Assembly: GCA_031459855.1 (NCBI GenBank)
Contig: JAVKHP010000001.1
Location: 3,014,309 to 3,078,308 of the forward strand
DNA from: Armatimonadota bacterium
GTDB lineage: Bacteria; Sysuimicrobiota; Sysuimicrobiia; Sysuimicrobiales; Humicultoraceae
Reading direction: 5' to 3'
Length of the DNA: 64,000 nt
The notes under the pieces were generated by a model that was given only the letters and a program-made list of their open reading frames with translations, did not search any database and was not told the DNA's origin. Positions within the stretch are counted from its first letter, which is position 1. Each line of letters starts with the position of its first letter. Shown piece after piece: positions 35,825 to 44,582 of this stretch. The translations under genes and the position numbers were made by a program.

Positions 35825-37150
35825 TCAGCGGGGGGCGAACGGCCACCCGCGGCCGCGCCCCCGCTCCTCCATGTGTCGTAGCAGGCGACGGGTCTCCTCG
35901 AACTGTTTCAGCAACCGGTTGACGTCGTGCACCGTGGTGCCGCTGCCCCGCGCGATCCGCCGGCGGCGACTGCCGTCGATGATGGACGGATCGGCGCGCT
36001 CGGCCGGCGTCATCGACTGGATCATGGCCTCGACGCGCTTGAGCTGGCGTTCGTCGACCGTCAGGCCCGCGGTGCGCGCGCGGGCGAAGCCCGGGATCAT
36101 CTCCAGCAGCTGGTCGAGGGGACCCATCTGGCGCACCTGCCGCAGCTGCTCGAGGAAGTCCTCAAGGGTGAACCGCGCGCGGCGCAGCTTGCGCTCGAGC
36201 TCGGCAGCGCGCTCCGCCGAGACCGCAGCTTCCGCCTTCTCGATCAGGGTGAGGACGTCGCCCATCCCCAGGATGCGTCCTGCCATGCGGTCGGGATGGA
36301 AGGGTTCCAGCGCGTCGAGCTTCTCGCCCACCCCCACGAACAGGATGGGCCGCCCCAGGGTGGCCACCACCGAGAGCGCGGCACCGCCCCGCGCGTCGCC
36401 GTCGAGCTTGGTCAGGATCACGCCGTCGATCGGGAGCCGGGCGGCGAAGCGCTCGGCCATAGTCACCGCATCCTGCCCGGCCATAGCATCGACCACCAGC
36501 AGGGTCTCGCGGGGATGCAGCGCCGCATGCATGGCGGCCAGCTCGGCCATGAGGGCGTCGTCGGCGTGCTGGCGTCCCGCGGAGTCCACAATCACCACGT
36601 CGTGCCCCGCGGTTCGGGCATGGGCCACCGCCGCCAGGGCGACCGCCACAGGGTCGGTGGCGCCATCCTGCGCGAAGACCGGGACGCTGGCAGCCGCGCC
36701 GACCACGCGCAGTTGCTCGATGGCCGCCGGCCGCTTCAGGTCGGTGGCTACCAGCAGCGGCGCCCTGCCGCGCCGCCGCAACCAGCGGGCGAGCTTGGCC
36801 GCCGACGTGGTCTTGCCCACGCCGTTGAGCCCCACTAGCAGCACCACCGCGGGCGGGGGCGGCGCCAGCCGCAGGTCGCGGGCGCCGCCGCCCAGCAGCC
36901 GGGTGAGCTCGGTGTGGACGAGCTTGACCACCTGCTGACCCGCGTTGAGGTGCTTCCAGACCTCTTGGCCCACCGCCGCCTCGCGCAGGCGCGCGGTGAA
37001 GTCGCGGACGACCTTGACGTTGACGTCGGCCTCCAGCAACGCCAGACGGACGTCGCGCAGCGCGGCGTCGACGTCCGCCGCCGACAGCACGCCGCGCCCG
37101 GTCAGCTTCCGAACGATCTCGCCCAGGCGCTGCTGCAGGCCGTCAAACAC
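35825..37150 (-). CDS. ffh: signal recognition particle protein Ffh (SRP54)
   Basis: 441-aa SRP GTPase. The N domain (VFDGLQQRLGEIVRKLTGRG) is followed by the G domain with GLNGVGKTTSAAKLA, DLKRPAAIEQL, VDSAGRQ (where many Ffh have VDTAGR), TKLDGDARGGAALS, and a methionine-containing M domain (MGPLDQLLEMIPG, MIQSMTPAERADP, RRRRIARGSGTTV). The GTG at 37150 has GAGGAG 8 nt upstream and overlaps the end of the upstream fusion gene by 8 nt. It binds signal sequences and docks on FtsY, encoded two genes upstream. Confidence 0.97.
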   Translation of the reverse strand: MFDGLQQRLGEIVRKLTGRGVLSAADVDAALRDVRLALLEADVNVKVVRDFTARLREAAVGQEVWKHLNAGQQVVKLVHTELTRLLGGGARDLRLAPPPPAVVLLVGLNGVGKTTSAAKLARWLRRRGRAPLLVATDLKRPAAIEQLRVVGAAASVPVFAQDGATDPVAVALAAVAHARTAGHDVVIVDSAGRQHADDALMAELAAMHAALHPRETLLVVDAMAGQDAVTMAERFAARLPIDGVILTKLDGDARGGAALSVVATLGRPILFVGVGEKLDALEPFHPDRMAGRILGMGDVLTLIEKAEAAVSAERAAELERKLRRARFTLEDFLEQLRQVRQMGPLDQLLEMIPGFARARTAGLTVDERQLKRVEAMIQSMTPAERADPSIIDGSRRRRIARGSGTTVHDVNRLLKQFEETRRLLRHMEERGRGRGWPFAPR

Positions 37151-38003
37151 CGGCAGGCTCCTCGCCGCGGGTCGCTTCGTAGACGCGGTAGCCACCGCGC
37201 AGCGCCACCTGCCGCACGCCGCCGAACCGCGCCGCGATCAGCCGCGCCAGCGTCCGGGCCCCCTGCGCGGTGCGCGCCACCAGGTAGAAGCGGCCACCCG
37301 GCCGGAGCACCCGGTGGGCATCGTCGATGAAGCCCGCCACCACCCGGCGACCCGCGCGGATGGGCGGGTTGGTCACCACGACGTCCATGGAGGCGTCCCG
37401 GATCGCTGCGGCGCGATCGCCCACCAGCACCGCCACGTTGTCCAGCCGGTGGGCGAGGGCGTTGTCGCGGGCCAGCGCCGCGGCGCGCTCGTTGGCGTCC
37501 ACCAGCCACGCGCCTCCTGCCGGCGCGAGCGCGGCGGCCACCAGGCCGACGGCCCCGTAGCCGCAGCCCAGGTCCAGCACGCGGTCGGTGGGCTCGATCC
37601 GCATCGCCTCGATCAGCAACCGGGTGCCGGGGTCGACGCCGCGCCGGGCGAAGACGCCCCGCGCCACCGCGAACGCCCACTGGCGTCCCCGCAGCGTCGC
37701 GTGCACGGTGCGCGTCTGGGGCGCCGACCGCGGGCGCCGCGTGAAGTAGTGCTCGCCCCCGGCGCGTGGGCCATCGCCCACCAGCCCCAGCGCCGCCTCG
37801 AACCGCTCCAGCGCGCCAAGCGCCCGGCGCAGGCCGTCGTGCACGGCCTGCCGCGAGATGCGCAGCTGCGCGGCGATCTCGCCCAGCGAGAGGTCGTCCT
37901 GGTAGTAGCGCACCAGGAACTCCCGCTGCCGTGCGGTCAGCAGGCGGCCGTAGCGATCCAGCAGGCGGTTCGCGCGGTCACGTCCTGCGAGCTCCCGGTC
38001 CAT
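37143..38003 (-). CDS. YlxM-like HTH domain fused to an RsmC/YbxB-type methyltransferase
   Basis: 286 aa in one unbroken frame. Residues 1-~75 match YlxM, the sigma-70 region-4-like HTH protein encoded before ffh in Firmicutes (LLTARQREFLVRYYQDDLSL, then AAQLRISRQAVHDGLRRAL). Residues ~84-286 are a class I SAM methyltransferase of the RsmC small-domain type: EHYFTRRPRSAP, GVDPGTRLLIEAM, motif I VLDLGCGYGA at 142-151, acidic motif II D169, and catalytic NPPI at 212-215. The first domain likely assists SRP assembly; the second probably methylates rRNA guanine. It starts at ATG 38003 and overlaps ffh by 8 nt. I know of no described fusion of these two families. Confidence 0.88.
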   Translation of the reverse strand: MDRELAGRDRANRLLDRYGRLLTARQREFLVRYYQDDLSLGEIAAQLRISRQAVHDGLRRALGALERFEAALGLVGDGPRAGGEHYFTRRPRSAPQTRTVHATLRGRQWAFAVARGVFARRGVDPGTRLLIEAMRIEPTDRVLDLGCGYGAVGLVAAALAPAGGAWLVDANERAAALARDNALAHRLDNVAVLVGDRAAAIRDASMDVVVTNPPIRAGRRVVAGFIDDAHRVLRPGGRFYLVARTAQGARTLARLIAARFGGVRQVALRGGYRVYEATRGEEPAGV

Positions 38004-38290
38004 CGTTCCTCACCTGTGCCTGGCGATTGCGTGGCGATGCAGGGCACCCGGCAGCCGCGCCGGGCGCCGCATCGACGGTCATCTGTAAAGGAAATCGCCT
38101 TGACACATGGAATCCTTCTTACCTTACCGCGGACGTGCGCCGCCGTCAACGGCAGTGCCAGGCCACGCGCAGCTGGCCGGGCCCGCGAAGGCGGGCGCCT
38201 GCGGTCCTCCTGGCCGCCGCGCGGCCGCCTCTCCCGGGCCCTGGGCCGCACGCTCCCACGCCCGGATGCCCCGGGCCCGCGGCCGCCACG
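38004..38290. other. leader region of the fusion gene-ffh operon with a short open frame
   Basis: 288 bp between ftsY and the fusion gene. Downstream of the promoter at 38121-38149 lies a leader of ~110 nt. It contains a 9-codon open frame at 38079-38108 (MCQGDFLYR, stop) preceded by AGAAGGA, a possible leader peptide. The first half of the region (38150-38290) is GC-rich and shows nothing. Confidence 0.35.
38121..38149 (-). promoter_or_regulatory. sigma-70-type promoter upstream of the YlxM-methyltransferase/ffh operon
   Basis: Minus strand: TTGACG (38144-38149), 17-bp spacer, TAAGGT (38121-38126). Five of six -35 bases match consensus and spacing is ideal. It would drive the fusion gene, ffh, rpsP, khpA, ylqD, rimM and trmD, separately from smc-ftsY. 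Confidence 0.6.
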
Positions 38291-39214
38291 CTACGACCGG
38301 CTGCCGTCCTGAGCCAGCAGCGCCTCGGCGAACGCGCCAGGGTCGAAGGGGTCGAGGTCGTCGAGCCCCTCGCCGGTCCCGAGGAACACGATGGGCACGC
38401 CCAGCGTCTGGGCGATGGCCACCGCGATGCCCCCCTTGGCCGTTCCATCGAGCTTGGTGATGACGACGCCGGTGAGGCGCACGGCCTCGTGGAAGGCGCG
38501 CGCCTGCGCCAGGCCGTTCTGGCCCGTCGTGGCGTCGAGCACCAACAGACGCTCGACAGGCGCCGCGGGCAGCGTGCGGGCCACCACCCGGTCGACCTTC
38601 TTCAACTCCTCCATCAGGTTGACCCGCGTGTGCAGGCGGCCGGCGGTGTCCACCAGCAGGACGTCGACGCCGCGCGCCTGCGCGGCCTGGGCCGCGTCGA
38701 ACACCACCGCTGCGGGGTCGGCACCCTCCCGGTGATGGATCACCGGCGCACCGACGCGGGCACCCCAGACCTCGAGCTGCGCGATCGCCGCGGCGCGGAA
38801 CGTATCGGCTGCCGCCAGCAGCACGCGGCGCCCCTCGCGGGTCAGCCGGTGCGCCAGCTTCCCGATCGTCGTGGTCTTGCCCGACCCGTTCACGCCGAGC
38901 ACGAGCACCACGGCGGGAGGCGGCTCGAGCCGCAGCCGCCCCGGCGGCCCGAGCCGATCGCGCAGGATGGCGGCCAGCGCCGCCCGGACCTCGGCCGGCG
39001 CCGCGCTCCCCACCGTCCGTGCGCGCAGGTCCTCGACGATGGCGCGCGCAAGCGGCGCGCCGAGGTCGGCCTGGATCAGCACTTCCTCCAGGTCGTCGTA
39101 GAAGGCGGGGTCGATCGGACGGGCCAGCAGAGCGTCCAGGCGCGCCCCCAGCGCCTGGCGGGTACGCGCGAGGCTCTGCCGCAACCGGCCGAGCCAGCCC
39201 GGTCGGTCCTCCAC
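38291..39214 (-). CDS. ftsY: signal recognition particle receptor FtsY
   Basis: 307-aa SRP receptor GTPase without a long acidic A domain, like Gram-positive FtsY. NG domain motifs: GVNGSGKTTTIGKLAHRL, AADTFRAAAIAQLEVW, DTAGRLHTRVNLMEELKKV, DATTGQNGLAQARAF, TKLDGTAKGG and FLGTGEGLDDL. The GTG at 39214 has GGAGG 9 nt upstream and lies 15 nt after the smc stop. The partner Ffh is encoded downstream. Confidence 0.97.
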   Translation of the reverse strand: MEDRPGWLGRLRQSLARTRQALGARLDALLARPIDPAFYDDLEEVLIQADLGAPLARAIVEDLRARTVGSAAPAEVRAALAAILRDRLGPPGRLRLEPPPAVVLVLGVNGSGKTTTIGKLAHRLTREGRRVLLAAADTFRAAAIAQLEVWGARVGAPVIHHREGADPAAVVFDAAQAAQARGVDVLLVDTAGRLHTRVNLMEELKKVDRVVARTLPAAPVERLLVLDATTGQNGLAQARAFHEAVRLTGVVITKLDGTAKGGIAVAIAQTLGVPIVFLGTGEGLDDLDPFDPGAFAEALLAQDGSRS

Positions 39215-44503: not shown

Positions 44504-44582
44504 TGGTCGGGGAGGGGGGATTTGAACCCCCGACCTCAGCGTCCCGAACGCTGCGCGCTACACCAAGCTGCGCCACTCCCCG
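44504..44582 (-). tRNA. tRNA-Pro (anticodon CGG), CCA encoded
   Basis: 79-nt cloverleaf. Acceptor CGGGGAG pairs with CTCCCCG, followed by ACCA. The D stem GCGC/GCGC has loop AGCTTGGTGTA. The anticodon stem CAGCG/CGCTG encloses loop TTCGGGA (CGG, reading CCG). The T stem GGGGG/CCCCC has loop TTCAAAT. All stems pair perfectly and the CCA end is in the DNA. CCG should be a common proline codon in this GC-rich genome. It has its own promoter upstream. Confidence 0.97.

Follow-up and report, generated by a model that had tools for sequence, protein, structure and literature searches.

We found that a gene on the minus strand of the window (the whole 64,000-nt stretch of DNA that was analysed), at positions 37143-38003, encodes a YlxM domain and a methyltransferase in one continuous frame. 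The fusion is real and unites two known families in a new way, so far seen in four genera. We propose that YlxM, fused in this clade to a predicted 16S rRNA methyltransferase, is the autoregulator of the SRP operon. The joint reading, in which a YlxM HTH, a linker, and a YbxB/SasO-type enzyme (predicted to form m2G1051) make up a two-domain protein whose YlxM part would repress its own operon at a palindrome, has in our estimate about an even chance of being correct. The frame comprised 286 codons without a stop, as the original prediction had stated, and was read from 38003 to 37143; the plus strand was considered as the coding strand of this interval and rejected.

The YlxM (UPF0122) domain occupied residues 1-75 (37779-38003, minus strand), the extent first proposed, and contained a sigma-region-4-like HTH. 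Pfam profile PF04297 matched residues 8-75 (E 8e-19, 68.2 bits against a cut-off of 22.7), Sigma70_r4 matched within the same half (E 9.6e-8), and the NCBIfam YlxM profile NF045758 scored 77.3, just below its cut-off of 80. Helices were predicted at residues 2-21, 24-35, 40-47, and 51-71. The proposed recognition helix region, SRQAVHDGLRRA (residues 50-61; 37821-37856, minus strand), was placed by residue conservation, with R51, Q52, A53, and D56 invariant in 21 Sysuimicrobiota YlxM sequences and the motif [ST]RQAV common to most of the other phyla sampled. In its N-terminal 75 residues, its [ST]RQAV recognition helix, and its slot directly upstream of ffh, the protein thus resembled the YlxM/UPF0122/p13 family (PF04297, NF045758). 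Unlike that family, it lacked the C-terminal part of the Pfam profile and carried the enzyme in its place; free YlxM is about 100-120 aa long and ends in C-terminal helices, whereas the form described here is fused and lacks this tail.

Residues 76-84 (37752-37778, minus strand) formed a flexible, low-confidence linker (pLDDT below 50 at residues 77-84), the length of which differed between the fused genera. It was followed by an MTS-type SAM methyltransferase domain at residues 85-279 (37167-37751, minus strand), identified by Foldseek and by PF05175, which matched residues 110-276 (E 3e-38, 131.7 bits against a cut-off of 23). The enzyme, complete as first described, carried motif I, VLDLGCGYGA (residues 142-151; 37551-37580, minus strand), the core residues of which were invariant in 34 aligned sequences, and motif IV, NPPI (residues 212-215; 37359-37370, minus strand), invariant in the same alignment. 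The predicted structure of the fused protein showed two well-folded parts separated by the low-confidence linker (mean pLDDT 87), and purifying selection acted on both halves (pairwise dN/dS of about 0.1-0.5). In three of the 7 fused genes, the 10 codons before the enzyme domain contained no start codon, and no start was common to all 7; it is therefore unlikely that the enzyme is generally initiated on its own.

The fused gene was located directly before ffh, which is the ylxM slot, and the overlap of 8 nt with ffh that had been noted originally was found at 37143-37150. The ffh gene (35825-37150, minus strand; SRP54, SRP54_N, and SRP_SPB) starts with a GTG at 37150 and encodes 441 aa including the M domain. 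The ftsY gene was at 38291-39214 (minus strand; SRP54 and SRP54_N). A YlqD homologue (PF11068; 34807-35211, minus strand) was present in the block after ffh, and the order ffh-rpsP-KH-ylqD-rimM-trmD in the window matches that of Bacillus. The sole RNA gene found in the window was a tRNA-Pro (CGG) at 44504-44582 (minus strand).

We then compared this locus across the phylum. CSP1-3 genomes were filed first under Armatimonadota and are now described as Sysuimicrobiota, a phylum that comprises a single class and a single order (PMC11604079). The phylum of the window, most likely Sysuimicrobiota (CSP1-3) and so named here, was sampled as 43 genomes, all of one order. The genes for ylxM and the enzyme were adjacent in 42 of the 43, the exception being a genome that is 72% complete (G033), and the order was ftsY-ylxM-enzyme-ffh where contigs permitted. 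In most genomes the enzyme gene was a separate gene between ylxM and ffh, and the stop codon of ylxM frequently overlapped the start codon of the enzyme gene, as GTGA or ATGA. Since gaps of up to about 150 nt were present in some genomes, this tight coupling is common but not universal. The fused frame was open in 7 genomes of 4 genera (protein identity 65-73%), and these 7 formed a single clade in the Ffh tree (SH-aLRT 100); one fusion event is therefore the simplest account. Two separate genes in homologues, which the original prediction took as a sign against a genuine fusion, are indeed the state in most of Sysuimicrobiota, but not in the four-genus clade. An assembly or sequencing artefact, which could be suspected because most relatives carry two genes, is virtually excluded by a fusion common to seven genomes of four genera in one clade with differing linker lengths; an open frame maintained at this level of divergence makes chance or sequencing error very unlikely.

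The C-terminal tail of YlxM that is missing from the fused proteins was present in most of Sysuimicrobiota, where free YlxM was mostly 119-127 aa long and reached 136-156 aa in three genomes. Two genera in the same family as the fused genomes carried a free YlxM of only 83-85 aa. Another genus of the family that includes the short-tailed and the fused forms had an unusually long YlxM of 156 aa (G004, L025:2186-2653). Outside the phylum, about 730 genomes were searched, in which adjacency of ylxM and the enzyme gene was judged from the listed places only. Among the 6-7 candidates scored per genome, no fusion was found in 336 genomes drawn around G060 (including two Sysuimicrobiota) or in 398 genomes of the phylum of G095. 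G708 has a long open frame at ylxM, which was examined as a possible fusion and rejected, as the genes there had the ordinary order ftsY-ylxM-ffh-rpsP.

The enzyme half had been called RsmC/YbxB-type, and the YbxB part of this assignment was upheld, with a single domain of YbxB/SasO type, whereas the RsmC role at G1207 was not. E. coli RsmC makes m2G1207 where the 1051-1207 pair of 16S rRNA is C-G, and SasO, the S. aureus orthologue of which is SAUSA300_0526, makes m2G at G1051 where the pair is G-C (PMC12637814). The 16S rRNA of relatives, located by sequence pattern in 7 of the 43 genomes, had G1051 in 7/7 and C1207 in 6/6 readable cases, including one from the fused clade (G008); the window genome's own 16S is not in the assembly, and the pair is known from relatives only. 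Because these relatives carry G1051-C1207, the predicted product is m2G1051 and not m2G1207. On sequence grounds, the enzyme half is thus predicted to be a YbxB/SasO-type methyltransferase that forms m2G at position 1051 in helix 34. RsmC proper was rejected (NF007023, 55.2 bits against 295; a single domain; C1207 in relatives).

The archaeal protein MJ0882 (PDB 1dus) was the best match across the whole enzyme half, by sequence (E 6.5e-37) and also by fold in the structure prediction that had been suggested as a check (Foldseek TM 0.91 on the target); MJ0882 is free-standing, unlike the enzyme half here. RsmC (E. coli 2pjd, Thermus 2zwv/3dmf) came next by fold and shared the catalytic domain fold and the NPP motif. 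It differs from the enzyme half in possessing a second, degenerate methyltransferase domain and in modifying G1207, a position at which the relatives have C; an N-terminal methyltransferase-like domain as in RsmC was not found in the predicted structure. When homologues from other phyla were placed in one tree with the Sysuimicrobiota enzymes, SasO itself not being among them, the latter formed one group (99) beside single-domain enzymes. Three of these neighbours were encoded between rplL and rpoB, where ybxB lies in B. subtilis and SAUSA300_0526 in S. aureus. The enzyme half therefore resembled the SasO/YbxB type (S. aureus SAUSA300_0526; PMC12637814) in its single MTS domain with NPPI, in the G1051-C1207 pair of its relatives' 16S, and in its place in the tree beside the rplL-rpoB enzymes; unlike that type, it lies in the SRP operon and is fused to YlxM in one clade, and its activity is predicted. 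Homologues about 50% identical were also seen in another phylum (L123, L124, and L126), beside amidase-like genes and in one case also near rpsI, these identities being read from translations; their location was neither the SRP operon nor the slot between rplL and rpoB.

A different substrate for the fused enzyme, raised in the original prediction, was considered, namely SRP RNA, with YlxM as the targeting domain. The gene neighbourhood would suit this, as would the large Alu-containing SRP RNA that matched RF01854 in 37 of the 43 Sysuimicrobiota genomes (about 266 nt at G000:C1:1460624-1460889) and the binding of scRNA by S. mutans YlxM (PMC8546722). However, helix 34 of the 16S rRNA is where this enzyme family acts (PMC12637814), the enzyme gene adjoins other genes in other phyla, and the G1051-C1207 pair suits the family target; we consider methylation of SRP RNA highly improbable. 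The 16S rRNA remains the substrate that we predict. Where the original prediction suggested that SRP assembly could be coupled to rRNA or SRP-RNA modification, the facts found point to a coupling through gene expression, by way of the operon, the translational overlap, and a common promoter that carries the conserved palindrome.

The palindrome in the window was the putative operator TGTCAAGGCGATTTCCTTTACA (38084-38105, minus strand), conserved upstream of ylxM within and outside the phylum. It stood next to a putative -10 element, TAAGGT (38121-38126, minus strand), a weak match at the place where relatives have TATACT or TATAAT, and a putative -35 element, TTGACG (38144-38149, minus strand), 17 nt from the -10. 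Across the phylum, the promoter of ylxM carried a 22-bp palindrome of the form TGTNAAG-N8-CTTNACA, with a best match of at least 11/12 in all 41 readable Sysuimicrobiota genomes, and a 12/12 match was kept in all of the fused genomes. A tighter pattern, TGTMAAGG-N6-CCTTKACA with at most one mismatch, matched in 34 of the 43 genomes, mostly at one place each, and the same pattern reversed, used as the control, gave 0 matches in the 43. Outside the phylum, a match of at least 10/12 was present within about 200 nt upstream in 33 of 43 YlxM-bearing genomes (27 of 37 without the 6 genomes that had already been inspected visually when the count was set up), against 0.49 expected from dinucleotide shuffles; as some of these genomes are closely related, they do not amount to 43 independent cases. 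The other 10 of the 43 sampled ylxM genes were without the palindrome. When 32 genomes from other phyla were searched whole, a perfect site was found in 22, mostly as a single site, and it was at ylxM in 16. The search for a known ylxM operator, carried out in open-licence papers, returned nothing relevant.

Upstream of the palindrome there was a -10-like element and often a TTGAC-like -35. The half-site CTTNACA includes TTNACA and resembles a -35 element itself, and the -35 sequence TTGACA is the target of sigma-70 region 4. YlxM is therefore the leading candidate for the protein that binds the palindrome, since its HTH resembles sigma region 4 and the palindrome is conserved at ylxM across phyla. 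In a few families, half-sites tended to differ where YlxM residue 56 was changed, a covariation in sequence that is suggestive only. We also considered an RNA hairpin and judged it unlikely. Positions 4 and 19 of the palindrome paired in 23 of 41 Sysuimicrobiota genomes, which does not exceed what independence predicts (18.9), and the left arm, which overlapped the -10 in several genomes, would not be transcribed there; in the other phyla, pairing was somewhat above independence (19 of 33 against 12.2), a modest excess.

Additional sites were found away from ylxM. Second palindromes were present about 80-155 nt before hsp20 genes in five Sysuimicrobiota genomes (L158:2690-2711, which is G000:C1:2881189-2881210; L159:3298-3319; L160:2558-2579; L161:2082-2103; and L164:242-263). 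The palindrome also preceded rpsP in two genomes of one family outside the phylum (L220:1501-1522 and L221:1501-1522), in which ylxM was located elsewhere without a palindrome; the identity of rpsP was read from the sequence. These extra sites at hsp20 and rpsP are compatible with a small regulon of YlxM or with a different regulator, so that a protein other than YlxM could be responsible. The palindrome might be bound by an unlinked factor, such as a regulator of proteostasis with hsp20 among its targets; YlxM would then act only as an SRP accessory, and the fusion would have joined two co-translated genes neutrally, each half working on its own. That most of Sysuimicrobiota manages without the fusion is in keeping with neutral joining. 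We regard this combination as unlikely, if still worth serious consideration, in that the only target common to the phyla is ylxM, the product of ylxM has a DNA-binding-type domain, and sigma region 4 relatives read TTGACA-like sequences.

Under the autoregulation that we propose, a YlxM dimer would bind the 22-bp palindrome and repress its own operon. Free YlxM would repress ylxM-ffh until taken up by SRP, and its binding to Ffh or SRP RNA would relieve the repression, so that ffh output would be matched to SRP RNA. Such a feedback would agree with the large SRP RNA of the phylum and with the findings in S. mutans, where YlxM is reported to bind both Ffh and scRNA and to modulate the hydrolysis of GTP (PMC8546722). 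In the fused clade, the proposed autoregulator and the predicted 16S rRNA enzyme form a single polypeptide. Because the two are one polypeptide, the level of the fused enzyme would follow SRP-operon control, and its chemistry would be unchanged.

Many rRNA methyltransferases bear RNA-binding extensions, and YlxM could accordingly be an RNA-binding adaptor that guides the enzyme to helix 34 of the 30S, regulation not being the purpose of the fusion. The scRNA binding of S. mutans YlxM (PMC8546722) would agree with such a role. Single-domain members of the enzyme family such as SasO, however, function without an extra RNA-binding domain (PMC12637814), and the operator was retained in all of the fused genomes; we consider the adaptor improbable. 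The regulatory reading has a parallel in the autoregulatory trigger enzymes. BirA and PutA, for example, are enzymes that regulate their own operons through a DNA-binding domain of the same protein. The likeness is by analogy and extends to the proposed working principle only, as DNA binding by the fused protein is inferred. The broader claim, that YlxM is a widespread SRP-operon autoregulator at TGTNAAG-N8-CTTNACA and that the trigger-enzyme-like fusion ties ribosome modification to the expression of SRP, and in some genomes of hsp20, is put forward tentatively, with a chance that we place somewhat under one half.

YlxM adjoins ffh in many bacteria, and in the open-licence literature searched its one described role was that of an SRP accessory, for Streptococcus. 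The conserved palindrome before ylxM in several phyla is the wider point, and it makes a regulatory role directly testable. The comparison moves the expected methylation site from G1207 to G1051, and the fusion places the SRP operon and the predicted methylation of 16S helix 34 in one polypeptide.
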